Below are positions 5,560 to 35,391 of a stretch of 64,000 bases of DNA, piece by piece. Origin of the DNA: Anaerolineales bacterium (GTDB taxonomy: Bacteria > Chloroflexota > Anaerolineae > Anaerolineales > Villigracilaceae); NCBI GenBank assembly GCA_020060625.1, contig JAGUZU010000075.1:1-64000 (forward strand), written 5' to 3'. The notes beneath the pieces are model-generated. The model was not told the origin of the DNA and did no database searches. It saw nothing but the letters and a program-made list of their open reading frames with translations. Within the stretch, counting starts at the first letter, position 1. Each line of letters opens with the position of its first letter. A program made the position numbers and the translations under genes.

Positions 5560-5563
<4 letters not shown>
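3761..5563 (+). CDS. Polytopic membrane protein, GT-C glycosyltransferase-like
   Basis: 600 residues, with about a dozen hydrophobic segments in the first 460 residues and a soluble C-terminal domain of about 130 residues. An acidic motif after early helices (SYFDSAEHYRII) resembles the first-loop acidic pair of GT-C enzymes, which use polyprenyl-phosphate sugars on the outer membrane face. Further conserved-looking loop features are YYHAGYHL and LANWGKYPALLS. I cannot assign a named family; DUF6541-like proteins are similar in layout. It begins 3 nt after the small anchored protein and overlaps the next membrane gene by ATGA. The role is inferred from fold and context only. Confidence 0.6.
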
Positions 5564-8126
<2,563 letters not shown>

Positions 8127-8144
8127 TTTGCTTTTTGAGAATTC

Positions 8145-16598: not shown

Positions 16599-16661
16599 GT
16601 CACGTTTTCAACGTGACGAAGTTGAAATTATTGAGAATGTCACGCTGGAAGCGTGACCTAC
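16595..16661. repeat. Palindromic element, copy 1 (two GTCACG hairpins)
   Basis: Two small hairpins (GTCACGTT-TTC-AACGTGAC and GTCACGCT-GGA-AGCGTGAC) are nested between terminal inverted repeats GTAGGTCACG/CGTGACCTAC. The element begins inside the wlbA stop codon. Its reverse complement, lacking a 21-nt centre, is at 42682-42727. Confidence 0.85.
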
Positions 16662-16670
16662 AGAGTGAAA

Positions 16671-18349: not shown

Positions 18350-18351
18350 TT

Positions 18352-19218
18352 ATGACGACTGAATTGAAAACGACTGAGCAAGAGAATTGGTCACTGGTCA
18401 TTCGTCCACAGCGCGCTTGGTGGGATCTGCACTTGGGTGATCTGTGGCGTTACCGTGATCTGGTCTGGATGTTCGTCTGGCGCGATTTTGTGGCGTATTA
18501 CAAGCAGACTATTTTAGGTCCGCTGTGGTATTTGATCCAGCCGATCCTGACGACGGTGGTGTTCACGGTCATTTTCGGTAACATCGCCCAACTCTCTACA
18601 GACGGATTACCGCCGTTCCTGTTCTACCTGGCGGGGAATACGGTGTGGACGTATTTTTCCGCCAGCCTGACCAGCACATCCAATACATTTACAGGGAACG
18701 CAGGTTTGTTTGGCAAGGTCTACTTTCCGCGGCTTGCCATGCCTGTTTCGGTTGTGATTTCACAAGTTATTTCGTTTGGCATTCGCTTTTTTGTGTTTTT
18801 AGGTTTTCTCTTTTACTTTATGGCATCCGGCGCGGACGTGCGCCCAAACTGGTGGATTTTGATTCTGCCCGTTCTCCTGTTCATCATGGCAGGGTTGGGG
18901 TTGGGGTCGGGAATCATCGTTTCGTCTCTTACAACCAAGTATCGCGATTTACAGCAGTTGGTGACCTTTGGCGTTCAGTTGTTGATGTATGGGACGCCGG
19001 TGATCTATCCGTTATCGTCCATTACAGGCGGATGGCGCTGGTTGATCCTTGCCAACCCGATGACGCCGGTGGTCGAGGTCTTCCGCCTGGCATTTTTGGG
19101 CGTGAGCGCCATGTCCCCGGTGTACCTGCTGTACAGCCTTGCTTTTATGGTTTTGGTGCTTTTGATCGGCGTGTTGATCTTCAACCGCGTCGAAAATAAT
19201 TTTATGGATACGGTCTAG
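18352..19218 (+). CDS. wzm: ABC-2 type polysaccharide export permease (Wzm), copy 1
   Basis: 288 residues with six hydrophobic segments. WRYRDLVWMFVWRDFVAYYKQTILGPLWY is the classic N-terminal amphipathic interface and first-helix entry of Wzm/KpsM permeases; GTPVIYPLSSI and NPMTPVVEVFRLAFLG are also typical. It forms the channel that exports undecaprenyl-linked polysaccharide with the ATPase encoded 3 nt downstream. A second pair is at 60817/61732. Confident family call; the exported glycan is unknown. Confidence 0.92.
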   Translation: MTTELKTTEQENWSLVIRPQRAWWDLHLGDLWRYRDLVWMFVWRDFVAYYKQTILGPLWYLIQPILTTVVFTVIFGNIAQLSTDGLPPFLFYLAGNTVWTYFSASLTSTSNTFTGNAGLFGKVYFPRLAMPVSVVISQVISFGIRFFVFLGFLFYFMASGADVRPNWWILILPVLLFIMAGLGLGSGIIVSSLTTKYRDLQQLVTFGVQLLMYGTPVIYPLSSITGGWRWLILANPMTPVVEVFRLAFLGVSAMSPVYLLYSLAFMVLVLLIGVLIFNRVENNFMDTV

Positions 19219-19221
19219 GTC

Positions 19222-20493
19222 ATGTCGAATACTGTTATTTCTGTTGAAAATCTTTCGAAGACGTATCGCCTCGGAGTTATTGGAACCGGCACATTCTTTG
19301 GCGACCTGAATCGATGGTGGGCAAGGAAACTTGGCAAGCCGGATCCGTATGCCAAGATCGGCGAAGTGGATCATGGGAACCGCTTTGGCGAGACGATTCG
19401 GGCGCTGGACAATGTCAGTTTTGCCCTGCAACAGGGCGAAGCGCTGGGCATCATTGGGCGCAATGGGGCGGGCAAAAGTACGCTTCTGAAAATTTTGTCG
19501 CGCGTGACGGCTCCAACTTCCGGCGAGGTCAAGGTCAAGGGTCGCATTGCAAGCCTGCTCGAAGTCGGAACCGGTTTTCATCCCGAACTGACCGGGCGCG
19601 AAAATATTTACCTGAACGGAGCCATCCTTGGGATGAGCCGTGCGGAAGTCAATCGAAAACTCGATGAGATCGTGGATTTTTCGGGCGTGGAGAAATTTAT
19701 CGATACGCCTGTCAAACGCTATTCAAGCGGGATGTACGTTCGCCTCGCCTTCGCTGTTGCCGCTCACCTCGAACCCGAAATTTTGGTGGTGGACGAAGTG
19801 TTGGCGGTAGGCGATGCGGAGTTCCAAAAGAAATGCCTTGGTAAGATGAGTGATGTGGCTAGTGGCGGGCGCACAGTACTCTTTGTAAGTCACAATTTGG
19901 CTGCGGTCTCCAACCTTTGTCAAACGGCCATCCTTATGGATAAAGGCAGGATACTACATAGCGGCGAAACAGAGGGCGTCGTTTTTAAGTACATGAACTT
20001 GAACAAAGATGCAAATTCTTTTACGGCTGACCTTCGAAATGTTCAAATAAGCGGGGAACCAAAGTTTACGAGTATCAATGTGCTCAACTCGCGTCGCGAG
20101 CCTGTCGACGCCGTTTTTTCTGGAGAAAGCATGTCTGTTGAACTTGGTTACGCCTCCACACGTACAAACCCTTTGGGACAGGTTTCAGCAAGTGCCATCT
20201 TTTCCAACGAACTTGGGGAGAATGTGATCTGTTGTTGGAGCGATCTTGTGTCCTTCAACTTCAAGAATCTGCCATCTTCTGGAAAATTAATTTGTGAAAT
20301 TCCAAAACTCCCGTTACTTCCCGGGAGATATCATATTTCGTTTAATCTTGTTGTAGACAAGAGAACAACAGATAAACTGCATCAAGGCATCGCAATAAAC
20401 GTTATTGAGGGCAGATTTTTTCCGACAGGGAAAATCCCCCCGCGGAAATTAGGAATGTTCTATGTCGAACATGATTGGAAATATCATGAATAA
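19222..20493 (+). CDS. wzt: ABC transporter ATPase with C-terminal glycan-binding domain (Wzt), copy 1
   Basis: 423 residues. ATPase domain with Walker A GRNGAGKST (79-87), Q-loop region ENIYLNGAILGM, signature RYSSGMYVRLAFAV and Walker B LVVDEVLAVGDAE. About residues 245-423 form a beta-rich domain like the O-antigen-binding domain of Wzt, which selects the finished chain. Base composition changes along the gene: a 60-nt line in the ATPase part (19501) has 38 G+C, whereas lines at 20281 and 20341 in the C-terminal part have 22 and 23. This suggests that the binding domain and the next gene were acquired together. The stop overlaps the acyltransferase start. Confidence 0.92.
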   Translation: MSNTVISVENLSKTYRLGVIGTGTFFGDLNRWWARKLGKPDPYAKIGEVDHGNRFGETIRALDNVSFALQQGEALGIIGRNGAGKSTLLKILSRVTAPTSGEVKVKGRIASLLEVGTGFHPELTGRENIYLNGAILGMSRAEVNRKLDEIVDFSGVEKFIDTPVKRYSSGMYVRLAFAVAAHLEPEILVVDEVLAVGDAEFQKKCLGKMSDVASGGRTVLFVSHNLAAVSNLCQTAILMDKGRILHSGETEGVVFKYMNLNKDANSFTADLRNVQISGEPKFTSINVLNSRREPVDAVFSGESMSVELGYASTRTNPLGQVSASAIFSNELGENVICCWSDLVSFNFKNLPSSGKLICEIPKLPLLPGRYHISFNLVVDKRTTDKLHQGIAINVIEGRFFPTGKIPPRKLGMFYVEHDWKYHE

Positions 20494-21187
20494 ATCCGCA
20501 AGATTGATTGCATTGATGCATCGGGTAACGGGCTGGCTGCTGAAGAAAACCCGGAATGAATTGGCGCGAAAAGATGAACGATATGAAAATAACAGGATTG
20601 GTCCCAACGTAGATTTGGGAACTGCGGTTTTGCAAGGCGGTTGTGTCATCAAGCACCCCGTTTTTTTGAGAGGCGATATTACGATTGGAAAATACAGCAC
20701 ACTTGGTCCGGAATGCGTTCTTCATGGTGGGGTAATCCAGATAGGAAATTATTGCCAGCTTGGACCGCGTGTTGCCGTCTATGCGCTCAATCATCCAATG
20801 AACCGTGTCACAACCTATGTAAATAGTACCTTGCTCGACGGTAAACTTAAGACCTCTGCATCGGACGAGACTGTCATCATTGGTAATGATGTATGGATTG
20901 GGTACGGGGCGGTTATTCTTCCGGGTATCAATATTGGCAATGGTGCTGTCATTGGCGCGGGGGCTGTTGTTAGTAGAAACATTGGTTCGTATGAAGTTGC
21001 GGCTGGAAATCCCGCTCGCATTGTAAAAAAGAGATTTGATCCGGAGCTTATTGAATTATTGAGTGAGTGGGAGTGGTGGAAACTGGACCCTGACGAACTG
21101 AAAAAACATGAAGAAATTTTTCTTGAAGATGTGATATCCAATCCGGAGGTATTAAGAAAGTACCTAAAAAAAATCGCTGCGCGATAA
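20462..21187 (+). CDS. Hexapeptide-repeat O-acyltransferase (CAT/NodL-like)
   Basis: 241 residues. Left-handed beta-helix with VDLGTAVLQGGCVIKHPVF, GKYSTLGPECVLHGGVIQIG, the active-site region YALNHPMN (catalytic-type His), then VIIGNDVWIGYGAVILPGIN and VAAGNPARIVKKRF, as in acetyl-CoA-dependent sugar O-acetyltransferases. The start may be 20462 or 20486 (MNKSARL), both overlapping wzt; the first has a TAGGA-like RBS. The region is visibly AT-richer than its surroundings, like the 3' part of wzt. It may acetylate the glycan exported by the adjacent ABC system. Confidence 0.8.
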   Translation: MSNMIGNIMNKSARLIALMHRVTGWLLKKTRNELARKDERYENNRIGPNVDLGTAVLQGGCVIKHPVFLRGDITIGKYSTLGPECVLHGGVIQIGNYCQLGPRVAVYALNHPMNRVTTYVNSTLLDGKLKTSASDETVIIGNDVWIGYGAVILPGINIGNGAVIGAGAVVSRNIGSYEVAAGNPARIVKKRFDPELIELLSEWEWWKLDPDELKKHEEIFLEDVISNPEVLRKYLKKIAAR

Positions 21188-21226
21188 AGTTTTGCAAGTA
21201 TGTCATGATTATTCGGATTATTCAGA

Positions 21227-22270
21227 ATGGAACATACAAGATTGGAACAGTTTTCTTTAAAAAGAAAAGATAAATGTTTGATCGTCGCCGAAGTAGCCCA
21301 GTCTCACGATGGCAGTCTTGGCATGGCGCACGCCTTCATTGATGCCATTGCCAAAGCCGGGGCAGATGCAGTCAAATTTCAGACCCATATTGCCGCTGCC
21401 GAGAGCACCCGGCAAGAGCCGTGGCGCGTCAAATTCAGCAGGCAGGACGGCTCGCGCTACGACTACTGGAAGCGCATGGAGTTCACCCCCGAACAATGGC
21501 AGGGTTTGGCAGACCATGCGAAAGAAAAGGGATTGACCTTCCTCAGTTCGCCATTCTCCATCGAGGCGGTAGATTTGCTGGAATCCGTCGGTATGCCTGC
21601 CTGGAAAGTTGCCTCCGGTGAAATTGGCAACAAAATGATGTTGGATAAAATGCTCGAAACAGGCAAACCCATTCTTTTATCCACTGGCATGAGCAGTCTG
21701 GATGAAATTGACGAAACTGTGGAATACATCCGCCGCCGGGATGTGGAATACGCGGTCATGCAGTGTTCGACTGCCTACCCCTGCCCGCCGGAAAAAATCG
21801 GCTTGAACTTGATCCCCTATTTGCGGGAACGCTATGAATGCGCAGTCGGGCTCTCCGACCATTCCGGCACCATCTACCCAAGTCTTGCTGCTGTAACACT
21901 AGGGATCGAAGTATTGGAAGTACATGTTGCTTTCAGCCGCGAAATGTTCGGACCCGATGTGCCCGCCTCAGTGACTACGGGAGAGCTGAAACAACTCGTG
22001 GAGGGAGTCCGCTTCATCGAACGGATGCGCAACAACCCTGTGGACAAAAATAGTTTTGCAGAAGAAGTTTTGCCATTGCGCCGCCTCTTCACGAAAAGCA
22101 TCGTGGCTGACGCAGATCTGCCCAAGGGCACGGTGTTGGAAGAAAAACACCTTCGCATTAAAAAACCCGGCAATGGAATTCCCGGCGAGCGGATGAGAGA
22201 CTTGATCGGTAAAAAGATACTGCGCGATATAAAGGCAGATGAGCAAATTCTGGAAGGAGATTTTTCCTAA
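21227..22270 (+). CDS. neuB: N-acetylneuraminate (sialic acid) synthase-like, cassette 1
   Basis: 347 residues. NeuB family TIM barrel: CLIVAEVAQSHDGSLGMAHAF, GADAVKFQTHIA, FLSSPFSIEAVDLLES, AWKVASGEIGNKMML, LSTGMSSLDEI and GLSDHSGTIYPSLAAV, followed by a C-terminal SAF domain (SIVADADLPKGTVLEEKHLRIKKPGNGI). The family condenses phosphoenolpyruvate with a 6-carbon N-acyl sugar such as ManNAc. The next gene encodes a NeuC-like epimerase, which makes the ManNAc-type substrate, so a sialic-acid-like product is likely. It is distinct from the second NeuB at 28599. Confidence 0.88.
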   Translation: MEHTRLEQFSLKRKDKCLIVAEVAQSHDGSLGMAHAFIDAIAKAGADAVKFQTHIAAAESTRQEPWRVKFSRQDGSRYDYWKRMEFTPEQWQGLADHAKEKGLTFLSSPFSIEAVDLLESVGMPAWKVASGEIGNKMMLDKMLETGKPILLSTGMSSLDEIDETVEYIRRRDVEYAVMQCSTAYPCPPEKIGLNLIPYLRERYECAVGLSDHSGTIYPSLAAVTLGIEVLEVHVAFSREMFGPDVPASVTTGELKQLVEGVRFIERMRNNPVDKNSFAEEVLPLRRLFTKSIVADADLPKGTVLEEKHLRIKKPGNGIPGERMRDLIGKKILRDIKADEQILEGDFS

Positions 22271-22275
22271 GCTCC

Positions 22276-23433
22276 ATGAAACGAAAAATATGCGTGGTTG
22301 TAACAGCGCGTCCAAGTTATAGCCGTATTCGAACTGCTCTCAAAGCGATTAAGGCACATCCCGATTTGGAGTTGCAATTGGTTGCGGCTGCTTCTACACT
22401 GCTGGAACAGTACGGCAATGCCATCCGTTATATGGAACAGGATGGTTTTCAAATTTCAAGCAAGGTCTATATGGTTGTGGAGGGTGAGAACCTGGCGACC
22501 ATGGCAAAGACGACAGGATTGGGTTTGCTTGAACTTGCCACCACGTTCGATAATCTTAAGCCGGATGTGGTGGTGACCATTGCAGACCGTTATGAAACCA
22601 TTGCTACAGCGATTGCTGCTTCTTACATGAATACCCCTCTTGTGCATATTCAGGGTGGCGAGATTACCGGCACGATTGATGAAAAAGTGCGGCATGCCGT
22701 TACCAAACTGGCAGATGTTCACCTTGTCTCCACACAAAAGGCGGCGGAGAACGTGATTCGCATGGGGGAAGCCCCGGCTTCCGTGTTCGTCACCGGCTGT
22801 CCGTCCATTGATATTGCCGCCAATGTCCTGAAGAATCCCGCCATTGATTTTGACCCGTTCGAGAAATATAAGGGCGTCGGCTCCATCTTCGATGTTCGGA
22901 ACAAGGATTATCTGGTGGTCATGCAGCACCCGGTCACTACCGAGTATGAGCAGGCGCGCACTCAGATCACGGAAACCCTGCACGCAGTGAAGGAAATCGG
23001 TCTGCCCGCATTCTGGTTCTGGCCCAATGTCGATGCGGGTTCGGATGGAACCTCAAAAGGGATTCGTGTGTTCCGTGAGAACGAACGCCCGACTAATATC
23101 CATTTCTTCAAGAACATGGAGTCGGAGGATTTCCTGCGGCTGGTGTACAACAGCCGCTGTTTGGTGGGCAACTCCAGTGTGGGTATCCGTGAGACCTCTT
23201 TCCTTGGAGTTCCAACGGTCAATATTGGAACGCGCGAAGCGGGGCGTGAACGGGGAAGAAATGTTCTGGATGTGGATTATGACCGGGTCCAGATTCAAGA
23301 GGCGGTTAAAAAGCAGATTTCAAACGGCAGGTATCCTTCTGATCCGCTCTATGGGCAGGGCAATGCCGGTGAACAGATTGCAGAGATTTTAAGCTCGATC
23401 CCGCTCAAGTTCGAAAAGAGACTGAATTATTAA
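22276..23433 (+). CDS. neuC: UDP-N-acetylglucosamine 2-epimerase (hydrolysing), NeuC-like
   Basis: 385 residues. GT-B-like fold; VVVTARPSYSRIRTALKAI at the N-terminus, VVTIADRYETIATAIAASYM, PLVHIQGGEITGTIDEKVRHAVTKLADVHL and NSSVGIRETSFLGVPTVNIGTRE are the NeuC pattern. The enzyme converts UDP-GlcNAc to ManNAc and UDP, or acts on a diacetamido analogue. Five nt after neuB, it supplies the neuB substrate. WbpI-type epimerases acting on diamino uronic acids are related, so a role in the wlb pathway cannot be fully excluded, but position and motifs favour NeuC. Confidence 0.85.
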   Translation: MKRKICVVVTARPSYSRIRTALKAIKAHPDLELQLVAAASTLLEQYGNAIRYMEQDGFQISSKVYMVVEGENLATMAKTTGLGLLELATTFDNLKPDVVVTIADRYETIATAIAASYMNTPLVHIQGGEITGTIDEKVRHAVTKLADVHLVSTQKAAENVIRMGEAPASVFVTGCPSIDIAANVLKNPAIDFDPFEKYKGVGSIFDVRNKDYLVVMQHPVTTEYEQARTQITETLHAVKEIGLPAFWFWPNVDAGSDGTSKGIRVFRENERPTNIHFFKNMESEDFLRLVYNSRCLVGNSSVGIRETSFLGVPTVNIGTREAGRERGRNVLDVDYDRVQIQEAVKKQISNGRYPSDPLYGQGNAGEQIAEILSSIPLKFEKRLNY

Positions 23434-23445
23434 AAGGCGGCAGGT

Positions 23446-24456
23446 ATGCAGACCAATTTCGATGAAATAACCGGAAGAAAAAAATTCTTCGATAACGTAA
23501 ACAAGGAACTCAACAAATTGATTGACCCCGCCACAGGCAAAGTCAAGGCGGATTTGGTGGAACAGGTCAACTGTCCCAATTGCGAGGCGAATTCATACGA
23601 CCCTTTATTCGTCAAACAAGGCTTTGATTTTGTCCGCTGTAAGAACTGCAATCTTGTATATGTAACTCCCCGCCTGTTGGAGAGCGCCACTCTCGCTTAC
23701 TATGGCGACGCACCCAACCAGGAATCCATGGTGGATTGGTTGAATGTACTTGCCAACCCGACCAATCAAGCCTGGCAGATCCCATATTTTCAGGAAGCCG
23801 TGGATATTTTGGCAAAACTGATTCCCGCAAACGGAAAAATTCTGGATATTGGCTGCTCCATCGGTTTGTTCATGGAGATCGCTCAAAAATCCGGCTTTGA
23901 ATGTGTTGGTCTCGAACCAGAACCGAAATCCCGCGAATATGCTCTTAATCGCGGACTGGATGTACGCCCGCAGCTTTTTAACGATGCCGGATTACCCCCC
24001 GCCTCTTTCGACGCCATTACAATGTTTGGCGTTCTGGAACATCTCAGCAAGCCAAAGCAAATGCTTGCCGATATTTGGAATACCCTGAAACCCGGCGGCG
24101 TGGTCATGGTCATTGTGCCGAATGTTTATAGTTTTGCCAACGGCACGCTTCATGAACAGGCGCGTACGTTCACCGGCAGAAATCACCTTAGTTACTTCGC
24201 GTGGGACACTCTTTCCGACCTCTTCAAACGTTCCGGCTATGAAGTCGCCCATTTGGATACCACGCTTGCAGGTCTGGATGCTGTCCTCAATCATTGGCAG
24301 TTCAATGATCCCCATACAAGCCTCTCGCTCGACCTTCTGCCTCCAAAAATGCGCGCGCTTCTTCAAGACCCCGAAGGACGAGCAAAGTTCGAAAAGTTCA
24401 TCCGCGATTGGGATATGGGCTTGCGCCTGCGTCTTGCCGCAAGGAAACCGAAATAA
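23446..24456 (+). CDS. SAM-dependent methyltransferase with N-terminal zinc-ribbon-like motif
   Basis: 336 residues. Two Cys pairs (CPNCEA near residue 43 and CKNC near residue 65) form a probable zinc ribbon, then a class I methyltransferase domain: ILDIGCSIGLFMEIA, GLEPEPKSREYA, FDAITMFGVLEHLSKP and LKPGGVVMVIVP. This domain pairing is common in sugar C- or O-methyltransferases in glycan clusters. Lying between neuC and neuA, it may modify the keto-acid sugar or the glycan bearing it; substrate unknown. It starts 12 nt after neuC with a GGCAGG-type RBS. Confidence 0.82.
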   Translation: MQTNFDEITGRKKFFDNVNKELNKLIDPATGKVKADLVEQVNCPNCEANSYDPLFVKQGFDFVRCKNCNLVYVTPRLLESATLAYYGDAPNQESMVDWLNVLANPTNQAWQIPYFQEAVDILAKLIPANGKILDIGCSIGLFMEIAQKSGFECVGLEPEPKSREYALNRGLDVRPQLFNDAGLPPASFDAITMFGVLEHLSKPKQMLADIWNTLKPGGVVMVIVPNVYSFANGTLHEQARTFTGRNHLSYFAWDTLSDLFKRSGYEVAHLDTTLAGLDAVLNHWQFNDPHTSLSLDLLPPKMRALLQDPEGRAKFEKFIRDWDMGLRLRLAARKPK

Positions 24457-24459
24457 TCC

Positions 24460-25143
24460 ATGAAGCGTGTCTTGGGAATCATTCCAGCCAGAGGCGGCTC
24501 CAAGGGAGTTCCGCGCAAGAATATCCGCGAAGTGGCGGGCAAGCCGCTGATTGCCTACAGCATCATGGCTGCGCAGTCCAGCCGCCTGCTTACGCGCTGT
24601 ATCGTCTCCACCGACGATACAGAAACGGCTGAAATCTCCGCCGCGCTTGGCTGCGAAGTGATGGAGCGCCCTGCCGAATTGGCGCAGGATGACACACCCA
24701 CCGTCTCGGTTGTCAAACACATCTTTGAACGATTGGAATCAGAAGACGAATTGTTCGATTATGGACTTGTCTTGCAACCCACCTCCCCGCTTCGCACCGG
24801 ACTTGATATTGACTCAGCGCTTCAAGCCTTGTTCCAGTCTGACGCTGATTCCATCGTCAGCGTCTATCAGGTATCCGACCATCACCCGGCGCGAATGTAC
24901 AAACTGAATAATGGACTTCTCACCCCGCTCGATGAAAAATTCGCAAGCGCGCGCAGGCAGGAACTCCCGCCGATCTATCATCGCAACGGCGCGATCTACG
25001 CCTTTCGTCGCAGCCTGCTTGATAAGGATACACTTCTTGGCAACAGAATACTTCCATACATCATGGAAGAAGACCGCTCGCTTAATATTGACACTGAATA
25101 CGATCTTGTGCTGGCAGATTTTGTTTTGAGCAGGAAAAAGTAA
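24460..25143 (+). CDS. neuA: CMP-acylneuraminate-type cytidylyltransferase, cassette 1
   Basis: 227 residues. The N-terminal LGIIPARGGSKGVPRKNIRE is the CTP-binding signature of CMP-sialic acid synthetases; CIVSTDDTETAEISAALGC, LVLQPTSPLRTGLDID and the YHRNGAIYAFRRSLL segment complete the pattern. It activates the NeuB product as a CMP sugar. It completes neuB-neuC-neuA together with the flanking genes and starts 3 nt after the methyltransferase gene. A second, more divergent member is at 31196. Confidence 0.88.
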   Translation: MKRVLGIIPARGGSKGVPRKNIREVAGKPLIAYSIMAAQSSRLLTRCIVSTDDTETAEISAALGCEVMERPAELAQDDTPTVSVVKHIFERLESEDELFDYGLVLQPTSPLRTGLDIDSALQALFQSDADSIVSVYQVSDHHPARMYKLNNGLLTPLDEKFASARRQELPPIYHRNGAIYAFRRSLLDKDTLLGNRILPYIMEEDRSLNIDTEYDLVLADFVLSRKK

Positions 25144-25148: not shown

Positions 25149-26120
25149 ATGATAAGAATCTTGAATGTCGAACCAGATCAATACAGCGACGAGGCGCGAT
25201 CCATCCTGAAGACAATCGGTCATCTTACAGAACAAAACATGGAGCGGGCTGAACTGCTCAAGCGCATCCGTGAATTCGATGTTCTTATCGTCCGCTTGCG
25301 CCATCAAGTGGATGCCGAAATAATGGATGCTGCGCCCGATTTGAAGGTGATCGTTTCAGCCACCACCGGGCTTGACCATATTGACATGGAATATGCCGCT
25401 CGAAAAAATATCACTGTGCTGAGCCTGCGCGGTGAAACGGAATTTCTCCGTTCCATTCCTGCTACTGCCGAATTAACCTGGGGCTTGCTCCTGGCATTGA
25501 TGCGAAACATCCCATTGGCTCATGTTTCCGTTCTTGCAGGCGAATGGCAACGTGACCGGTTCAAAGGACACGACCTCGCCGCGAAGCGACTCGGCATTCT
25601 TGGTTTGGGCAGGATCGGAGAAAAGATTGCCCGTTACGGGTTGGCATTCGATATGCGGGTCAGCGCGTATGACCCGTATCGAAAGGATTCTCTGTCTGGC
25701 GTCCCCATGAAAGATACGATGGAAGCGCTGCTTCGCAATACGGATGTCTTGAGCATCCACGTGCCGTTGAACACGGATACCATCAATCTAATCGGCGTCC
25801 AGGAATTGAACCTCCTTCCGCGCGGCTCATACCTGGTCAACACCGCTCGCGGCGCAGTCCTGGACGAGAACGCCCTGCTTGCCGCCCTTCATTCCGGTCA
25901 TCTCGCGGGCGCGGCGCTGGATGTGCTGGCTGGCGAGAGAACTTCCGAAAGATCACCGTTGATTGAGTACGCCCATGCGCATTCCAATCTTTTGCTCACG
26001 CCGCATATCGGCGGCGTCACGTTTGAATCCATGACTGCGACCGAGGTTTTTATGGCAAAAAAACTGAAGGCGCACCTTGCAATGGCGAACCAAATCGGAG
26101 CAAAAAGAAAAGCCGAATGA
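25149..26120 (+). CDS. D-isomer-specific 2-hydroxyacid dehydrogenase
   Basis: 323 residues. Typical two-domain family: substrate-domain motif ATTGLDHIDMEYA, NAD-binding LGILGLGRIGEKIARYG near residue 144, NTARGAVLDENALLAALHSGHLAGAALDVL (with the substrate-binding Arg) and the catalytic His in TPHIGGVTFESM. It would interconvert a 2-keto acid and a 2-hydroxy acid. Placed directly after neuA, it may act on a keto-acid sugar precursor or product rather than on phosphoglycerate; that is inference. ATGA overlap with the following transferase. Confidence 0.82.
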   Translation: MIRILNVEPDQYSDEARSILKTIGHLTEQNMERAELLKRIREFDVLIVRLRHQVDAEIMDAAPDLKVIVSATTGLDHIDMEYAARKNITVLSLRGETEFLRSIPATAELTWGLLLALMRNIPLAHVSVLAGEWQRDRFKGHDLAAKRLGILGLGRIGEKIARYGLAFDMRVSAYDPYRKDSLSGVPMKDTMEALLRNTDVLSIHVPLNTDTINLIGVQELNLLPRGSYLVNTARGAVLDENALLAALHSGHLAGAALDVLAGERTSERSPLIEYAHAHSNLLLTPHIGGVTFESMTATEVFMAKKLKAHLAMANQIGAKRKAE

Positions 26121-28598: not shown

Positions 28599-29645
28599 AT
28601 GCGAAAACTAACCATTGATGGCTTTACCATCTCCGACGACAGCGACTGCTTCGTCATTGCCGAGATCGGCAACAACCACCAGGGCGACCTTGAAAAAGCC
28701 AAAGACCTCTTCAAAGCCGCGAAGGAATGCGGTGTGGACTCGGTCAAACTGCAAAAGCGCGATAACAAGTCCCTGTTGACGCGCGCGGCTTACAACAAGC
28801 CCTACGATAACGAAAACAGTTTCGGCGCCACCTATGGCGAACACCGCGAAGCGCTGGAATTCGGGCGCGAGGAATACGTCGAGTTGAAAAAATACGCCCA
28901 GGAACTCGGCTTGATCATGTTCGCCACCGCCTTCGATTTCAACAGCGCGGACTTTCTCGCCGACCTCGACATGCCCGCCTACAAGGTCGCTTCGGGCGAT
29001 CTGAAAAGCATCCCCCTATTGAAGCACATCGCCAAAATCGGCAAGCCGATGATTGTCAGCACGGGCGGCGGCACGATGGAGGACGTCCAGCGCGCGTATG
29101 ATGCCATTATGCCCATCAATTCGCAATTGGCGATCCTGCAATGCACCGCTTCCTATCCCGCTGAACCCGAGGATCTAAATCTTCGCGTCATCAACACCTA
29201 CCGCAAGCGCTTCCCCGAACTGGTCATCGGTCTCTCCGACCACGAGAATGGGATTGCGATGGCGGTGGCGGCGTACGTGCTCGGCTCGCGCGTCGTGGAG
29301 CAGCACTTCACGCTCAACCATACCTGGAAAGGCACCGACCATGCCTTCTCGCTCGAACCGATTGGGATGCGTAAACTCGTCCGTGATTTGCGGCGGGTGA
29401 AGGTTGCGATGGGCGATGGTGAGAAGAAAATCTATCCGAGTGAGGTCAACCCCATTCACAAGATGGGCAAAAAACTCGTTGCAGCCCGTGACCTTAAAGC
29501 GGGTCAGGTGCTGACTCTAGAAGACATTGCCATCAAGTCGCCTAGCGACGGCATCCCGCCGTATGAGTTGGATAATGTGATCGGCAAGACGCTTACTAAA
29601 GACTTGCTCGAAGACGAGAATTTTTTGTTTGAGAATTTGAAGTAA
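28599..29645 (+). CDS. NeuB-family keto-acid sugar synthase, cassette 2
   Basis: 348 residues. NeuB TIM barrel with CFVIAEIGNNHQGDLEKAKDL, CGVDSVKLQKRDNKSLLTRAAY, FATAFDFNSADFLADLDMPAYKVAS, VSTGGGTMEDV and GLSDHENGIAMAVAAY, ending in a SAF domain (LVAARDLKAGQVLTLEDIAIKSPSDGI). It diverges clearly from the NeuB at 21227, for example QKRDNKS in place of QTHIAA at the substrate side, so a different acceptor aldehyde is expected. RBS AAAGGA 7 nt upstream of ATG. It is followed by an aldehyde dehydrogenase, a CMP-sugar synthetase and a transketolase; no second NeuC is present. Confidence 0.85.
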   Translation: MRKLTIDGFTISDDSDCFVIAEIGNNHQGDLEKAKDLFKAAKECGVDSVKLQKRDNKSLLTRAAYNKPYDNENSFGATYGEHREALEFGREEYVELKKYAQELGLIMFATAFDFNSADFLADLDMPAYKVASGDLKSIPLLKHIAKIGKPMIVSTGGGTMEDVQRAYDAIMPINSQLAILQCTASYPAEPEDLNLRVINTYRKRFPELVIGLSDHENGIAMAVAAYVLGSRVVEQHFTLNHTWKGTDHAFSLEPIGMRKLVRDLRRVKVAMGDGEKKIYPSEVNPIHKMGKKLVAARDLKAGQVLTLEDIAIKSPSDGIPPYELDNVIGKTLTKDLLEDENFLFENLK

Positions 29646-29655
29646 TTTTTGATAC

Positions 29656-29723
29656 GTCATTCTGAGCGAAGCGAAGAATCTCTACGGCGATCCAAGAGAC
29701 CCTTCGCTAGCGCTCAGGGTGAC
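29656..29723. repeat. 68-nt imperfect palindrome (MITE/REP-like)
   Basis: GTCATTCTGAGCG and CGCTCAGGGTGAC form 13-nt terminal inverted repeats (11 of 13 pairs), with a second inner pair GCGAAGAATCTCT/AGAGACCCTTCGC. It fills most of the 93-nt gap between the synthase and the aldehyde dehydrogenase genes. Elements of this sort are dispersed in many genomes; no transposase is present. Confidence 0.85.
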
Positions 29724-29738
29724 ATGTAACAGGTAACT

Positions 29739-31199
29739 ATGCTCCCTACCCAAATCCCCAACTGGATCGGCTCGCAGGAAATGCCGACTCAAGCCAATGA
29801 ATGGTTCGAGAAACTCAACCCCGCAAACGGACAATTGCTCACCCGCGCCGCGCGCTCACGCAAAGAAGATATTATCCAAGCCGTCGAAGTGGCAAAGAAA
29901 GCCCAGCCCGCCTGGGCGGATACGCCTGCGGTGCAGCGTGGCATGATCCTGCACAAGATCGTGGTGGGGATGCAAAACCGTCAGAGTGAGATCGCTGCGA
30001 TTGTTGCTGCCGAAACTGGAAAGTCCATGAAAGAGGCGTTGGGCGAAACGGGCGGAGCGATCCAATGCGGGTTGTTCTATGCCAGCGAAGGTCAACGTCT
30101 ATATGGTCGCACAACGACGAGCGGCACAGCGAATAAATATGCGATGACGATTCGTCAGCCCATCGGCGTGGCGGGACTCATCATCGCTGCGAATACTCCC
30201 ATCGCAAATGTGGCGTGGAAGGTGTTTCCTGCACTCATTTGCGGCAATGCCGCCATTTTGAAAGCTGCTGAAGATACGCCAGCTACGGCGTGGATCTTTG
30301 GGCAGATCGCGAAAGAAGCGGGTTTGCCCGATGGCGTGTTGAGCATCATGCAGGGATTTGGTGAAGAGGCGGGCGCGCCGTTGGTGGCGCATCAGGATGT
30401 GGGCGTGATCAGTTTCACCGGCTCGACCGAAGTGGGACGCATCATCAACCGTTCGGCAGGGGAACGCTTCGCGCGCATCTCGCTGGAACTGGGCGGGAAG
30501 AATCCGTTGGTGGTGTGTGACGACGCCGATTTGGAGAATGCTGCCAAGTGGGTGCTGCTCTCTGCCTTTAGCAATGCGGGACAACGCTGTGCTTCGACCA
30601 GCCGCGTCATAATTTTTGAATCAGTGTACGAAAAGTTTCGCGACATGCTGGTGGAAAAAACAAAGAAATTGAAAGTTGGAATCACGGATGATTGCGATTT
30701 TGGCGCAGTCATCAATGAGGGACAATTGCTCAACATGGTGGATGCCGTGCAAAAGGCAAAGAAGAATGGCGCGACCATCCTTTGCGGCGGCGAGCGCATG
30801 ACCGATGCCGAGCATAAAGACGGATACTACATGGCGCCGACGTTGATCGAAAACGTTGACCCACATGATGAGATTTCAGAGTGCGAGTTGTTTGGACCCG
30901 TAGCCTTGTTATTCAAAGTGAAAGATTTTGAGCACGCGCTTCAAATGGCGAACGATACGCCTTATGGTTTGACGGCTAGCATTCACACCAAGAGCATTCA
31001 CCGCGCTACTCGTTTTTATGACAAAGTTCAAACGGGTGTGGCGGTTGTCAATGCCGGAACGCATGGATCCGAACCGCACATGCCGTTCGGCGGGCGCAAA
31101 CTTTCGGGCAACGGTTCACGTGAGCCGGGCACCGAGGCGCTCAATATTTATTCTGAATTAAAAGATGTTTACATCAACATCGACCCGACGCAGGTATGA
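29739..31199 (+). CDS. Aldehyde dehydrogenase
   Basis: 486 residues, full-length NAD(P)-dependent ALDH. Conserved features: IAANTPIANVAWKVFPALICG, FTGSTEVGR, ELGGKNP with the general-base Glu250, GQRCAST with the nucleophile Cys284, and HMPFGGRKLSGNG near the C-terminus. It would oxidise an aldehyde to an acid. Its place inside a keto-acid sugar cassette, with ATGA overlap to the cytidylyltransferase, suggests a sugar-aldehyde or semialdehyde substrate in that pathway; this is inference. The start at 29739 follows the palindromic repeat. Confidence 0.9.
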   Translation: MLPTQIPNWIGSQEMPTQANEWFEKLNPANGQLLTRAARSRKEDIIQAVEVAKKAQPAWADTPAVQRGMILHKIVVGMQNRQSEIAAIVAAETGKSMKEALGETGGAIQCGLFYASEGQRLYGRTTTSGTANKYAMTIRQPIGVAGLIIAANTPIANVAWKVFPALICGNAAILKAAEDTPATAWIFGQIAKEAGLPDGVLSIMQGFGEEAGAPLVAHQDVGVISFTGSTEVGRIINRSAGERFARISLELGGKNPLVVCDDADLENAAKWVLLSAFSNAGQRCASTSRVIIFESVYEKFRDMLVEKTKKLKVGITDDCDFGAVINEGQLLNMVDAVQKAKKNGATILCGGERMTDAEHKDGYYMAPTLIENVDPHDEISECELFGPVALLFKVKDFEHALQMANDTPYGLTASIHTKSIHRATRFYDKVQTGVAVVNAGTHGSEPHMPFGGRKLSGNGSREPGTEALNIYSELKDVYINIDPTQV

Positions 31200-31945
31200 G
31201 CAAAGAGAATCCTTCGATCATCGCCTTGATTCCCGCGCGTGCTGGTTCTAAACGCGTGCAGGGAAAAAATATCCGCCTGCTGGCGGGACATCCGCTGATC
31301 GCGTACACGATCAGCGCCGCGAAGCAGAGCGGAGTCTTTGCGGATATTCTCGTTTCGACAGACTCTGAGGAGTATGCCGAGATCGCGCGTTCGTATGGTG
31401 CGGAAGTTCCGTTTCTGCGTCCGGCTGAAATCGCAGGCGACCTTGCGCTCGACATCGAATGGCTGGACTTTACGCTGCATAAACTAAGAGAAATGGGACG
31501 CGAATATGATTGCTTCAGCATCTTGCGCCCGACCAGTCCCTTCCGTTTGCCAAGCACCATTCAACGGGCGTGGAGTGCCTTCAAAGCCGAAGAAGGCGTG
31601 GACTCGCTCCGCGCGGTGGAAAAGGTCAAAGAGCACCCCGGCAAGATGTGGGTGATTCGCGGCAAGCGCATGACGCCTTTGCTTCCGTTCGGTCCGAAGG
31701 AACAGCCCTGGCACAGCACGCCATATCAGGGCTTACCCGAAGTCTATTCGCAGAATGCCAGTCTGGAGATCGCTTGGTCTCGTGTGGTGTTTGACGGTCG
31801 AACCATTGCAGGTGAAGAGGTCATGCCGTTCATTTCGGAAGGCTACGAAGGCTTTGATGTGAATCATCCCTACGATTGGGATCTGGCGGAACGTCTCGTG
31901 GCAAGTGGAGAGGCGCAACTGCCAAAGGTAGAAAAAATTTCTTAG
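31196..31945 (+). CDS. CMP-sugar (acylneuraminate-type) cytidylyltransferase, cassette 2
   Basis: 249 residues. IIALIPARAGSKRVQGKNIRLLAGHPLIAYTI is the CTP-binding N-terminus, ILVSTDSEEYAEIARSYGAEVPFLRP and FSILRPTSPFRLPSTI follow, and VYSQNASLEIAWSRVV replaces the YHRNGAIYA-type segment of cassette 1. It should activate the product of the second NeuB-like enzyme as a CMP sugar. The divergence from 24460 supports a different sugar. Confidence 0.87.
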   Translation: MSKENPSIIALIPARAGSKRVQGKNIRLLAGHPLIAYTISAAKQSGVFADILVSTDSEEYAEIARSYGAEVPFLRPAEIAGDLALDIEWLDFTLHKLREMGREYDCFSILRPTSPFRLPSTIQRAWSAFKAEEGVDSLRAVEKVKEHPGKMWVIRGKRMTPLLPFGPKEQPWHSTPYQGLPEVYSQNASLEIAWSRVVFDGRTIAGEEVMPFISEGYEGFDVNHPYDWDLAERLVASGEAQLPKVEKIS

Positions 31946-31999
31946 AGAAAAATCAGGTGCGGGCGCGGGGTGAGGCGCAGCGTCTATGAAGAGGAAAAC

Positions 32000-33976
32000 A
32001 TGGTCGAACTAAAATTGATCCCCGTGGAAGAATTCAAGCGAGTGCGAAATTCGTCCGCTGACAAATACAAGAAACTTCAGATCATCGCGGATATGTGCCG
32101 CGCCAACACGCTCACCGAAGTGAAGCGCGCCGGGTCGGGGCATCTTGGCTCAAGCTTCAGCGCGATGGATATTGTGGTGTGGATGTATTACGAAGAGATG
32201 AACACCATCAAGGTTGGCTTCGACAGCCCCGACCGCGATATTTATTTTTCATCGAAAGGGCATGATGTGCCGGGCTTGTATGCCGTGCTTCATTCGCTTG
32301 GCGAAATCCCCGACCACATGCTCATGTCGCTGCGTCGCCTCAATGGCTTGAATGGTCATCCCGATATCGGCAATCGCGGCATGGAAGCCAACTCGGGTTC
32401 ACTCGGCATGGGCATCTCGAAGGGGCGCGGTATGGCGTGGGCAAAGAAATACAATAACAATGGCGGGCATGTCTTTGTGATGACCGGCGATGGCGAATTG
32501 CAGGAAGGTCAGAACTACGAAGCCCTGCATGTCACCGCACACCATAAGGTCGATAACCTCACTGTCATTGTTGATGACAACAAAGTGCAATCTGATAAAC
32601 CTGTTGCCGAGATCATCGATCTTCGCAACCTTGTCGAAAAATTTACTGCTTTCGGTTGGCATGTCATTCGCATTGATGGACATGATTTCCGTTCTATTGA
32701 AAAAGCCATTGCCGAAGCCAAACAGGTCAAAGGTAAGCCGCAAATCATTATCGCCGATACCATCAAAGGTCGCGGTGTTTCGTTCATGGAACATCCCGCC
32801 GCGCTTGAAATTGGAAAAGGACTCTATCCCTGGCATTCGGGCGCGCCGGATGATGCAGCCTTCGAGGCAGGTTATTCTGAACTGATTCAACGCATCAATG
32901 CGGACCTCGCGGCTGTGTCGCTTGACCTGTTGCATTTGACTCCCGTTGAGCCGGAAGTGAAGACCGCGAGTCCGTCTATGTTGGAAGGTGAACCACTCAG
33001 CCAGGCGGCGCTGGATCGTCTTTCTGTGAAGCCGACCGATGAATATGTTTCGCGTGCGTATGGTCAAGCTTTGGTGGATCTCGCTGCCAAGCGCAAAGAC
33101 ATCGTCGTACTTGATGCAGATCTCTCCTCTGATTGCAAAGTCCGTGACTTTGAAAATACCTACCCTGACCGTTTCATTGAAAACGGTATTGCCGAACAGG
33201 ATATGGTCTCCATGGCGGCAGGTCTTGCTCGTCAGGGACTGTTACCTGTCGTCAACTCGTTTGCCAGTTTCCTCGCTTCACGTGCCAATGAACAGATCTA
33301 TAATGCCGCAGGCGAAAAATCCAAGATCATCTATGCCTTACATTATGCTGGACTCATTCCCGCTGGACCAGGCAAGTCACATCAATCCTTGCGCGATATT
33401 TCGCTCTTCTCTGCCTTGCCGAATTGCACCATCCTGCAACCCTGCAGTGCCGAAGAAACCCGTATGGCGATGGATTACGCCGTGAACCAGGCTGAAGATG
33501 TGATTGCGCTGCGTCTCATCATTGGTCCAAGTCCGCGCCGGATTACGCTCCCGGCTGGGTATGAGTTTAAGCCAGGGGTGGGTTGTCAACTAACGATGGG
33601 GAAAGATGCGGTCATGTTCGCGTATGGACCGGTCATGTTGCACGAAGCACTCCTCGCCAGTGAACTCCTCGCCGAGCGCGGATTCGGTTTGAACATCATC
33701 AATATGCCCTGGCTCAATCGTGTCGATGTGAAATGGCTGACCGAAACGCTCAAGCCGTACTCTAATATTTTTATGCTCGAAGATCATCATCCCGCTGGCG
33801 GTTTGATGGATAACATTCTTACGGCTTGTAGTGAACATGGCTTGTTGAATGGTAAACAAATGATTAAATTTGCTGTGGAAGGCTATCCTGCCTGCGGTAC
33901 GCCGCAGCAGGCGCTGGCGTTCCATGAGTTGGATGGGTTGTCGCTCTCCAAACGTGTGATGAAATATTGTGGGTAA
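32000..33976 (+). CDS. Transketolase (single chain, N- and C-terminal domains)
   Basis: 658 residues. Thiamine diphosphate enzyme: RAGSGHLGSSFSAMDIVVWMYY, the cofactor motif GDGELQEGQNYEA (Gly163-Asp164 onward) ending VIVDDNKVQSD, then the pyrimidine-binding domain with the catalytic-type Glu in FIENGIAEQDMVSMAAG (Glu399) and a C-terminal domain (MFAYGPVMLHEALLA). Transketolases move a two-carbon ketol unit between sugars. In many glycan clusters the two halves are separate genes; here they are joined. The start at 32000 has a GAGG RBS; a GTG at 31970 lacks one. Location implies a dedicated role in the second keto-acid sugar pathway, not central metabolism. Confidence 0.88.
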   Translation: MVELKLIPVEEFKRVRNSSADKYKKLQIIADMCRANTLTEVKRAGSGHLGSSFSAMDIVVWMYYEEMNTIKVGFDSPDRDIYFSSKGHDVPGLYAVLHSLGEIPDHMLMSLRRLNGLNGHPDIGNRGMEANSGSLGMGISKGRGMAWAKKYNNNGGHVFVMTGDGELQEGQNYEALHVTAHHKVDNLTVIVDDNKVQSDKPVAEIIDLRNLVEKFTAFGWHVIRIDGHDFRSIEKAIAEAKQVKGKPQIIIADTIKGRGVSFMEHPAALEIGKGLYPWHSGAPDDAAFEAGYSELIQRINADLAAVSLDLLHLTPVEPEVKTASPSMLEGEPLSQAALDRLSVKPTDEYVSRAYGQALVDLAAKRKDIVVLDADLSSDCKVRDFENTYPDRFIENGIAEQDMVSMAAGLARQGLLPVVNSFASFLASRANEQIYNAAGEKSKIIYALHYAGLIPAGPGKSHQSLRDISLFSALPNCTILQPCSAEETRMAMDYAVNQAEDVIALRLIIGPSPRRITLPAGYEFKPGVGCQLTMGKDAVMFAYGPVMLHEALLASELLAERGFGLNIINMPWLNRVDVKWLTETLKPYSNIFMLEDHHPAGGLMDNILTACSEHGLLNGKQMIKFAVEGYPACGTPQQALAFHELDGLSLSKRVMKYCG

Positions 33977-33978
33977 AG

Positions 33979-35391
33979 ATGTCCGATATCAAGATCGCAA
34001 TCCCCCTGCACGGCAAAATGGCAGCGCGTGCTTTCCATCAGCCTTTCTTTCGTCAGAAGCTGGCCGAGGGCAGCTTGAAGCCGCTGTACTTCCTCAGCCC
34101 CTATTACTACCGCGCCCTGACATTCGACCCCACGCAATATTTCGAGCTGCAGGTGGAGCAGTACGACGCGCAGTACAACCGGCACTTTTTATTGCAACAA
34201 TTGCGCATGTTGCGCCGTTTTGTGATAGTGACCGAAACCACCGATATGCGCTTTCGGGAGATGATCGAGACCAAGTTGTTTGACGCCACCCTGCCCGGCA
34301 TGGCGGCGCAAATGATCTATGTCAGTGCTTTGCGGCGCATTCCTCATATAGGCCGGTTTCTGGCGTGGCTTGAGAAAAGGATGTATCCCACGCATGCGCA
34401 TGACGAGTACTTCGCGCAGCAAAACGTGGATTGTGTATTGACCCCCGGTATGGGTAACTATAACTTTTGGAATGAAGGTAATTTTGCGCGTGAAGCGCAG
34501 CGTAAGGGAATTCCTGCGTTTGCTGCCATCACCAATTACGACAATATTGTCAATATGGGTTATCGCGGGTTTAATCCCACTTGCCTGGCGGTGTGGAGCA
34601 GGCAAATGGCAGATGAAGTGATTAAACTGCATGAATACCCCGCCAAAAAGCTGGAAGTGGTTGGCGCAGTGCAATATGATCGGTACTTACAGCCTTTGAC
34701 AATGAGCCGTGAGGAGTTCCTGACTTCAATAGGGCTTGACCCTGTAAAAAAAACAGTGTTTTTTGCAGGCGGCGTCAATGTCAATCACTACTTTGAGATT
34801 TATCGAATATTTGTCGAACAGAAGGAACGATTGTGGGGCGGTGATTTTAATTTTATTGTGCGCCCACAACCCCACGCAAAATTGCTCGATGCCCCGGGTT
34901 GGCAGGTTGTTGAAAAATTATTTGTAGATGCAGGCGTGTACGTCTCAAACCCCGGCGTGGTGGATGCAAACGGCAGCCGCACACAGGAAATACGTATTGA
35001 CTTGGGCATGGACGATGGGCCTGATGAATTGAATTACCTGCTGCGTTACAGCGATGTGTTGGTGAACAATTTCTCCACCATGGGGTTGGAAGCGGCCATT
35101 TGTGACCTGCCCACTATTCACATTGGGTACGACGCTTACACATTCGGCGTCAAGTTTGGTGTGACCACCGGGTTTCAGCAGCGCATGACCCACAACCGCC
35201 GACCATTACGTTTGAAGGCGTCCAAAGTGGCAAAGAGTGACCAGCAATTACTAGCGTTCATTGAGCAATATCTGAACGACCGCAGCTTTGACCGTGAAGA
35301 CCGCCATGAATATGCCGTTTCTGAATGCGGTGAATTGGATGGCATGGCGACTTCACGCCTCACGGATATGATTAAAAGCCGGATGAAATAA
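33979..35391 (+). CDS. GT-B-like transferase of capsule type, unassigned
   Basis: 470 residues. IAIPLHGKMAARAFHQPFFR at the N-terminus, LTPGMGNYNFWNEGNFARE, VWSRQMADEVIKLHEYPAKK, FFAGGVNVNHYFEIYRIFVE, the RPQPHA motif (related to RPHP) and DVLVNNFSTMGLEAAICDLPTIHIG, which matches the nucleotide-binding loop of CDP-glycerol/KDO/sialyl-type GT-B enzymes. The layout resembles 26117-27484, so each neu cassette is followed by one such gene and may use its CMP sugar. ATG at 33979 is 3 nt after the transketolase stop. Function inferred. Confidence 0.6.
   Translation: MSDIKIAIPLHGKMAARAFHQPFFRQKLAEGSLKPLYFLSPYYYRALTFDPTQYFELQVEQYDAQYNRHFLLQQLRMLRRFVIVTETTDMRFREMIETKLFDATLPGMAAQMIYVSALRRIPHIGRFLAWLEKRMYPTHAHDEYFAQQNVDCVLTPGMGNYNFWNEGNFAREAQRKGIPAFAAITNYDNIVNMGYRGFNPTCLAVWSRQMADEVIKLHEYPAKKLEVVGAVQYDRYLQPLTMSREEFLTSIGLDPVKKTVFFAGGVNVNHYFEIYRIFVEQKERLWGGDFNFIVRPQPHAKLLDAPGWQVVEKLFVDAGVYVSNPGVVDANGSRTQEIRIDLGMDDGPDELNYLLRYSDVLVNNFSTMGLEAAICDLPTIHIGYDAYTFGVKFGVTTGFQQRMTHNRRPLRLKASKVAKSDQQLLAFIEQYLNDRSFDREDRHEYAVSECGELDGMATSRLTDMIKSRMK

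Follow-up and report, generated by a model that had tools for sequence, protein, structure and literature searches.

A conserved, transketolase-containing gene cassette, probably for an acidic surface sugar akin to sialic acid and perhaps two carbons shorter

Four adjacent genes of an Anaerolineales bacterium (Chloroflexota; Villigracilaceae) very probably belong to a cassette, conserved across several phyla, for a cytidine monophosphate (CMP)-activated ulosonic-type acid. They lie within the window, by which is meant the whole stretch of 64,000 nucleotides that was analyzed (contig JAGUZU010000075.1 of assembly GCA_020060625.1; G000:C126:1-64000 in our numbering, in a genome of 3.67 Mb), and encode a NeuB-family synthase, an aldehyde dehydrogenase (ALDH), a CMP-sugar synthetase and a transketolase (TK). 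The likely product of the cassette is an acidic surface sugar akin to sialic acid, perhaps two carbons shorter. The best-known bacterial sialic acid-like sugars are of the neuraminic (Neu), legionaminic (Leg), pseudaminic (Pse) and ketodeoxynonulosonic (Kdn) types, and an ordered cassette with a TK in nine phyla points to a further sugar type that annotation pipelines miss. An earlier reading of the window from its letters (the original prediction) had described these four genes, and this is borne out, as the open reading frames (ORFs) lie at the positions given, are all on the (+) strand and lack internal stops in an ORF and Pfam check.

Loci for comparison were chosen by similarity to the window NeuB, taking the best 80 of 221 relatives together with a Streptomyces plasmid locus (81 in all), and their genes were found by six-frame searches. 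The larger cassette that emerges has the order NeuB - (KdsC-type phosphatase) - SDR - ALDH - CMP-sugar synthetase - TK, which adds two members to the four of the window: a short-chain dehydrogenase/reductase (SDR) of ~270 a.a. and a KdsC-type haloacid dehalogenase (HAD) phosphatase of ~170 a.a. The original prediction was thus right about its four genes and incomplete as to the set, since the usual SDR and the frequent phosphatase are missing here and were not visible to it. At least three of the six families are present in 66 of the 81 loci, always on one strand (66/66), so that the neighbors whose co-occurrence the original prediction had put forward for checking are conserved together. The order NeuB-SDR-ALDH-CMP-TK, for the members present, is kept in 61 of these 66. 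The titles of loci in this group represent nine phyla, namely Chloroflexota, Pseudomonadota, Cyanobacteriota, Acidobacteriota, Thermodesulfobacteriota, Gemmatimonadota, Actinomycetota, Planctomycetota and Bdellovibrionota; Myxococcota is not counted, as the label of the six loci concerned has no other basis than the word Deltaproteobacteria in their titles.

In the 50 loci whose sequence continues for 7 kb or more past NeuB, the SDR is found in 41, the ALDH in 44, the CMP synthetase in 44, the TK in 41 and the KdsC-type phosphatase in 16. This count, made with an identity cut-off, includes the CMP synthetase of L112 (36%, a hand-made exception) and two fragments, one of 62 residues from the TK of L105 and a short one from the CMP synthetase of L107; in a length-filtered count that allows no exception these three matches fall out, leaving 42 CMP synthetases and 40 TKs. 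Nine of the 50 have no SDR, and every one of them comes from Chloroflexota and is closely related to the window. Counts of absence are lower bounds, because the other 31 of the 81 loci have less than 7 kb downstream. NeuB stands alone in six loci, and in five of the six it is cut or at a contig end, the sixth being L083. For eight loci with no TK in the fetched stretch the genome was searched (L070 was not included, and L081 served as a positive control), and a cassette-type TK was found in six (L075, L072, L068, L090, L107, and L049); in L075 (Moorena bouillonii) it is encoded on the strand of NeuB, about 20 kb further on. Cultured bacteria that carry the cassette include Moorena bouillonii PNG and Desulfosediminicola flagellatus. 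Similarly, Desulfovibrio A2 (L109) has a cassette-type ALDH elsewhere in its genome (814 bits).

Distances between the gene families correlate in all 15 pairs (r 0.41–0.78). For 13 of the pairs not one of 999 permutations matched the observed correlation, whereas 1 did so for CMP-KdsC and 19 for TK-KdsC (n = 9); 13 near-identical Chloroflexota loci (L035-L045, L084, L113) were left out of this comparison, in which shared species history can give correlation too. The closest cassette copies belong to Anaerolineales (Chloroflexota), one of them titled Villigracilaceae. Within the genus the pattern is patchy, with a TK of at least 70% identity in 15 of 37 genomes. The ALDH is present in 14 of these 15 genomes vs. 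0 of the 22 that lack the TK, the exception (G014) being 71% complete.

Some copies of the cassette are apparently decaying. In L044 (14058-16200) the ALDH and the CMP synthetase are each matched in two pieces, and the TK at G001:C49:11901-13892 has one in-frame TAA. A different setting is seen on the plasmid of Streptomyces sp. NBC_01237 (L115, 1-25863), where NeuB, SDR and TK sit beside a 4-hydroxyphenylpyruvate dioxygenase, a lactate-oxidase-like enzyme, an aminotransferase-domain protein and a lysine 6-transaminase, in what looks like a natural-product cluster that has borrowed the module.

The window synthase is a NeuB-family protein (PF03102, 266.2 bits with a cut-off of 22.1; PF08666, 42.8 bits with a cut-off of 21) that scores below the equivalog cut-offs for N-acetylneuraminate synthase (TIGR03569, 315 of 399.65 bits) and PseI (TIGR03586, 248.3 of 340.25 bits). 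The nearest of ten references is human NANS (42% identity over 339 residues, 310 bits), followed by a NeuB on contig C75 of the same genome (213 bits), and NANS is likewise the best of the ten for each of six cassette NeuBs compared; the NANS reference sequence was verified over its SAF part, which matched 1wvo. A maximum-likelihood tree gathers 30 cassette NeuBs in a single clade (100/98). NANS is its sister (96/76, not starred, on a long branch), the C75 NeuB is next outward (96/86), and PseI and the synthases of NeuC clusters fall outside. The original prediction had called this NeuB divergent from the one at 21227, to which it is indeed only 30% identical, and the phylogeny that it proposed does not group the cassette NeuBs tightly with any characterized synthase.

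NANS acts on N-acetylmannosamine 6-phosphate and mannose 6-phosphate, and synthases of the NeuB family require the aldehyde of the acceptor. From its kinship the window synthase is assigned to the NANS type, i.e., it is predicted to use a 6-phosphorylated hexose. KdsC-type phosphatases occur in 22 of the 81 loci (one is the query itself), and in L062, L063, L077, and L086 they lie 6–10 kb from NeuB. In L056 (9992-11740) a NANS-type synthase is fused in frame to a KdsC-type phosphatase (NeuB::KdsC, 583 a.a.). These accompanying phosphatases and the fusion agree with a phosphorylated intermediate. With the model TIGR01670 (cut-off 106.95 bits), the phosphatase of L058 passes at 112.6 bits and that of L098 fails at 98.5. 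In Neisseria NeuB an arginine contacts the N-acetyl group; its loss was considered as a diagnostic for the cassette synthases and dropped, because the 21227 NeuB of the neuC cluster also lacks it. Neither the window NeuB nor the window TK has a match in PHROGs at 1e-10.

The last gene encodes, as originally predicted, a full single-chain transketolase with the thiamine diphosphate (ThDP) fold and the catalytic His, Asp, Asn and Glu residues. It scores below the NCBIfam cut-off (411 of 488 bits), and the nearest solved sequence to the cassette TK is human transketolase. Translation more likely starts at ATG 32000 than at GTG 31970, as relatives begin nearby and residues 1–10 of the structural model have a predicted local distance difference test score (pLDDT) below 50. 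The catalytic residues His58, His98, His130, Asp174, Asn204, and His289 are invariant in all 43 complete cassette TKs, including that of the window, and Glu409 is present in 42. The substrate pocket is altered. Human transketolase contacts the substrate phosphate through Arg318, Ser345, His416, and Arg474. In a profile alignment with the human enzyme, from which these sites were mapped by eye, the last three are replaced in 43 of 43 cassette TKs (Ser345 by Asp in every case, His416 by Tyr, Leu or Phe, and Arg474 by Ile or Ser), Arg318 is kept in 11, and Asp424 is Pro throughout (43/43). An engineered variant of the E. coli enzyme, 5hht, reportedly made to accept non-phosphorylated aldehydes, carries its changes at Ser385, Asp469, and Arg520. 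The replaced phosphate-site residues would suit a non-phosphorylated substrate.

Among solved structures, the closest to an AlphaFold2 model of the window TK (pLDDT 87.5) is 6yak, a split transketolase, at a Z of 38.8 across 280 residues. Against human transketolase the model gives a Z of 33.9 and a root-mean-square deviation of 19.5 Å over 567 residues, and whole TK chains in general fit at ~19.5 Å, vs. 2.6 Å over 538 residues against DXS chains. The modeled monomer would thus have a DXS-like domain arrangement, which may be an artefact of single-chain folding.

The ALDH retains Cys284 and Glu250, the two residues singled out in the original prediction, and both are invariant in the 20 aligned sequences that include the window's. 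Its best NCBIfam models are α-ketoglutaric semialdehyde dehydrogenase (432.7 of 770 bits) and 2,5-dioxovalerate dehydrogenase (430 bits, below cut-off), enzymes whose substrates are 2-keto acids ending in an aldehyde, which is the pattern needed for oxidation of a C7 aldehyde. The CMP synthetase reaches 136 of 205.7 bits with the PseF model. Among the matches shown, none of the four window proteins reaches an NCBIfam cut-off. The cassette SDR has the classical Ser-Tyr-Lys set, and its best NCBIfam models, all below cut-off, are mannonate oxidoreductase, glucose 1-dehydrogenase, gluconate 5-dehydrogenase and, lower, KduD. Its top structural matches are gluconate 5-dehydrogenase (3cxr, Z 32.2, 1.9 Å over 243 residues) and 2-keto-3-deoxygluconate (KDG) dehydrogenase (4z9x, Z 31.9), with FabG entries at 30.4 to 31.2; the nearest solved sequence is 6uh2 from Leptospira borgpetersenii. 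Enzymes of sugar acids are thus among its closest named kin, which favors action on such an acid, though FabG-like entries come almost as near. A relationship to KduD was considered and is weak, as the mean identity (32%) is below that to the SDR on contig C75 (39%) and the structural matches from gluconate 5-dehydrogenase to FabG lie within ~2 Z units.

Tentatively, the cassette can be read as a Kdn-like nonulosonic-acid pathway to which three enzymes that edit the carbon chain (SDR, TK, and ALDH) have been added, with substrates, order of steps and product being what we infer from the observed genes, residues, conservation and kinship. The NANS-type synthase would join phosphoenolpyruvate to a hexose 6-phosphate, most simply mannose 6-phosphate, giving a nonulosonate 9-phosphate. 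A KdsC-type phosphatase, which in many relatives is near or fused to the synthase and in the window could perhaps be the C75 protein, would strip the phosphate. The SDR would then oxidize the penultimate C8 hydroxyl to a ketone, creating a HOCH2-CO-CHOH end, from which the TK could remove C8 and C9 as a two-carbon ketol unit. The ALDH would convert the resulting C7 aldehyde to a C7 carboxylate, and the CMP-sugar synthetase would activate the product for a surface polysaccharide. Starting from Kdn, this product would be 3-deoxy-L-arabino-hept-2-ulosaric acid, an enzymatic counterpart of periodate-truncated sialic acid. By Fischer reasoning, a nonulosonate derived from D-mannose, when viewed from C9, is D-threo at C7 and C6, as are the normal TK donors xylulose and fructose. 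It is accordingly possible, and no firmer than that, that in at least nine phyla the TK cuts two carbons from an oxidized nonulosonic acid and, with the SDR and ALDH, yields a CMP-activated C7 3-deoxy-hept-2-ulosaric acid.

Such a scheme covers all of the conserved genes, as well as the ALDH being sometimes missing. No ALDH lies beside the cassette in L049, L054, L058, or L098, and searches of these genomes, the completeness of which is not known, give generic ALDHs only (best 333–361 bits). That the ALDH is dispensable in these four fits a late tailoring step, and the presence of SDR and TK in L054 and L098, with no cassette-type ALDH in the genome, fits the ALDH as the last step. If true, chain shortening would be a route to heptulosaric acid, a new use of transketolase in glycan precursor synthesis and a new way to diversify sialic acid-like sugars. 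The cassette is a small set and is testable in vitro.

Several observations weigh against chain shortening. In the window and its close relatives the cassette has neither SDR nor phosphatase at the locus. The original prediction had noted that no 3-deoxy-D-manno-octulosonate 8-phosphate (Kdo-8-P) phosphatase is present here, and a whole-genome search agrees: its KdsC-type matches are a domain on C75 and a weak partial match on C19, with none on the contig of the window. The best SDR match of the genome is the C75 SDR, which adjoins the only good KdsC match; of 57 genus genomes 51 have this SDR, among them all 32 of good quality. That C75 supplies both activities to the window cassette in trans is a guess, and its SDR is only 40% identical. 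Furthermore, the cassette SDR is closer to the C75 SDR than to KduD, and the C75 NeuB has neither TK nor ALDH, so the SDR may act before these enzymes or apart from them. PtmA of the legionaminic pathway is an SDR as well. In the accessible part of one source it is placed in the segment that makes the GDP-sugar precursor (PMC4481668). With its phosphate pocket lost, the TK also has no obvious partner to receive the two-carbon unit. In a MAFFT alignment with E. coli TktA the corresponding sites are again not canonical (Ala/Gly at Ser385, Gly/Leu/Cys/Ser at His461, Ala/Gly/Ser at Asp469, and Ile/Ser at Arg520); the exact replacements vary with the alignment, whereas the loss of the phosphate-site residues does not. 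In L083 the 1.9 kb after NeuB hold no SDR, the genomes of L086 and L058 gave no cassette-type TK on search, and in the four genomes that lack a cassette-type ALDH the aldehyde would remain. Finally, the Streptomyces locus has no CMP synthetase, and a search of the plasmid alone gave a generic ALDH only (310 bits). Its class III aminotransferase was tried as a stand-in for the ALDH and rejected: with 569 bits it exceeds the cut-off for lysine 6-transaminase (520.8) and so does not speak for use of the aldehyde.

The SDR and TK could instead supply the acceptor, making an unusual aldose (phosphate) for the synthase, in which case the product would be an ulosonic acid of ordinary length and unusual stereochemistry. 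This was the idea behind the original prediction, and the place of PtmA in the precursor segment of the legionaminic pathway (PMC4481668, seen in part) and the related SDR that adjoins the C75 NeuB, away from any TK or ALDH, both speak for it. We consider it unlikely, as a NANS-type synthase implies a phosphorylated acceptor, yet the phosphate residues of the TK are replaced, and no role before condensation is left for the ALDH. The more specific proposal, in which the TK built the acceptor aldose and the ALDH oxidized it before condensation, is not supported, in view of the same mismatch, of the dispensability of the ALDH and of the chemistry: because the synthase needs the acceptor's aldehyde, prior oxidation would end the pathway, unless a dialdose were made. 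Alternatively, the SDR and ALDH might oxidize C9 in two steps to a nonulosaric acid, with the TK making or recycling something else, e.g., an acyl substituent. SDR and ALDH do occur together in 47 of the 81 loci, and three Moorena loci (L070, L072, L075) have both with no TK within the fetched stretch. This reading is nonetheless improbable, given that such SDRs are understood to act on secondary alcohols, that cassette-type TKs are present in the genomes of L072 and L075, and that L054 and L098 combine SDR and TK in genomes devoid of a cassette-type ALDH.

Since transketolase is generally regarded as reversible, it might also extend or branch the chain by adding a two-carbon ketol unit, e.g., from hydroxypyruvate, to a sugar-acid aldehyde or a keto-sugar, with the SDR reducing the new ketone. 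A pocket stripped of phosphate contacts would suit a small donor, but no cassette gene would make the aldehyde to be extended and the ALDH would compete for it, which leaves chain extension doubtful at best. A plain Kdn-type pathway, on the other hand, would need only the synthase, phosphatase and CMP synthetase, which by general understanding suffice for CMP-Kdn, and the SDR, ALDH and TK would then be unrelated polysaccharide neighbors. This is very unlikely in view of the order kept in 61 of 66 loci across nine phyla, the correlated gene-family distances and the tie between ALDH and TK in the genus genomes.

Among known systems, a Kdn pathway with a 9-phosphate intermediate operates in Bacteroides thetaiotaomicron. 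The cassette resembles this pathway and human NANS in its NANS-type synthase, KdsC/YrbI-type phosphatase and PseF-like CMP synthetase, and differs in the added SDR, TK and ALDH and in the lack of a dedicated phosphatase on the window's contig. With NF058599, which we take to be the model for the Kdn 9-phosphate phosphatase (cut-off 180), the two cassette phosphatases tested score 88 and 100 bits. By gene content, the nearest published relative found, from the accessible part of its description, is the sfmABCDE flagellin-modification operon of Shewanella oneidensis, which unites a NeuB-domain protein, a ThDP enzyme and the SDR-type SfmC, weakly like PtmA (PMC3765264). In contrast to the cassette, its ThDP enzyme is annotated ilvB, its NeuB has 290 a.a., it includes a methyltransferase and an ATP-grasp protein, and the portion of the source consulted gives it no transketolase, ALDH or CMP synthetase (PMC3765264). 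The legionaminic (ptm/leg) systems of Campylobacter and Plesiomonas share a NeuB-family synthase, a CMP synthetase and PtmA with the cassette, but have their own GDP-sugar segment (PtmE, PtmF) and an acetyltransferase, and the table in the accessible part of the source has no transketolase or ALDH (PMC4481668).

Heptulosaric acid (Dha) occurs in plant rhamnogalacturonan II, for which the part of the source available gives its biosynthesis as unidentified (PMC12168206), and is also known, from sources available in part, from the lipopolysaccharide of Rhizobiaceae. The proposed product is of the same compound class. If derived from Kdn it would be the L-arabino isomer, and for this reason the cassette is not claimed to make Dha. 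A full-text search for literature linking NeuB, sialic or nonulosonic acids with transketolase, from which subscription papers are mostly absent, found no description of the cassette; it turned up a Clostridium paper that uses the two terms in separate, unrelated parts and a paper on viral metagenomes. It is thus apparently undescribed, as a variant within the nonulosonic-acid pathways, and the view of the original prediction that this is an undescribed pathway to a CMP-activated keto-acid sugar is upheld as regards the conserved gene set, with the product predicted.

The cassette and the gene that follows it are listed in Table 1. The glycosyltransferase-like protein directly downstream is a weak candidate for the transferase of the cassette product; its cluster (17) is present in seven loci including the window, all from Chloroflexota.

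Table 1. Genes of the cassette and the adjoining gene in the window.
Feature	Position	Strand	Description
NANS-type NeuB-family synthase (predicted)	28599..29645	+	348 a.a.; TIM barrel + SAF; Pfam NeuB 266 bits, SAF 43 bits
Aldehyde dehydrogenase (ALDH)	29739..31199	+	486 a.a.; Pfam Aldedh 508 bits
CMP-sugar synthetase, PseF-like below cut-off	31196..31945	+	249 a.a.; CTP_transf_3 77.7 bits
Single-chain transketolase (TK), altered substrate pocket	31970..33976	+	668 a.a. from GTG 31970; Transketolase_N, Transket_pyr, Transketolase_C
Glycosyltransferase-like protein	33967..35391	+	474 a.a.; directly 3' of cassette; partial match to BFO_1060 glycosyltransferase model, 64.3 of 200 bits

The surroundings are those of a surface-polysaccharide locus, with an ABC-2 type membrane protein (18352), a Wzt-like ATPase (19222), glycosyltransferases and methyltransferases. 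A separate, first neu cluster has its own NeuB (21227), NeuC (22276; 384 bits vs. a cut-off of 235.9) and CMP synthetase (24460). As a whole it spans 15657-25143 and also includes a Gfo/Idh protein (15657), a DegT aminotransferase (17192), a hexapeptide-repeat protein (20462) and a methyltransferase, and it could be a legionaminic-type rather than an N-acetylneuraminic acid-type set. No dehydratase, aminotransferase or acetyltransferase that could serve the synthase lies within the cassette; the DegT and hexapeptide-repeat proteins adjoin the other neu cluster (flanks annotated in part), and a comparison of 81 sets with that of the window finds the DegT cluster (6) in 18. Between both NeuB clusters, at 25149-26120, is a D-isomer-specific 2-hydroxyacid dehydrogenase, which is outside the clusters common to other cassette loci.

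A protein search of the host genome yields four NeuB-type genes, to which Pfam adds a fifth, weaker match on C4; the genome also has a separate transketolase-like ORF on C111 (G000:C111). The C75 system (L126 = G000:C75:4000-21530, 1185-10368) comprises a Gfo/Idh protein, a bifunctional sulfate adenylyltransferase/adenosine 5'-phosphosulfate (APS) kinase, the SDR, a CMP-synthetase::KdsC fusion and a NeuB that lacks the SAF domain. A further NeuB gene, 36% identical, lies 7 kb past the end of the window (L127 = G000:C126:63500-81784, 7836-8906). Near it is an Antibiotic_NAT-family protein (L127, 10565-11335), which in such a setting may be a sugar N-acetyltransferase.

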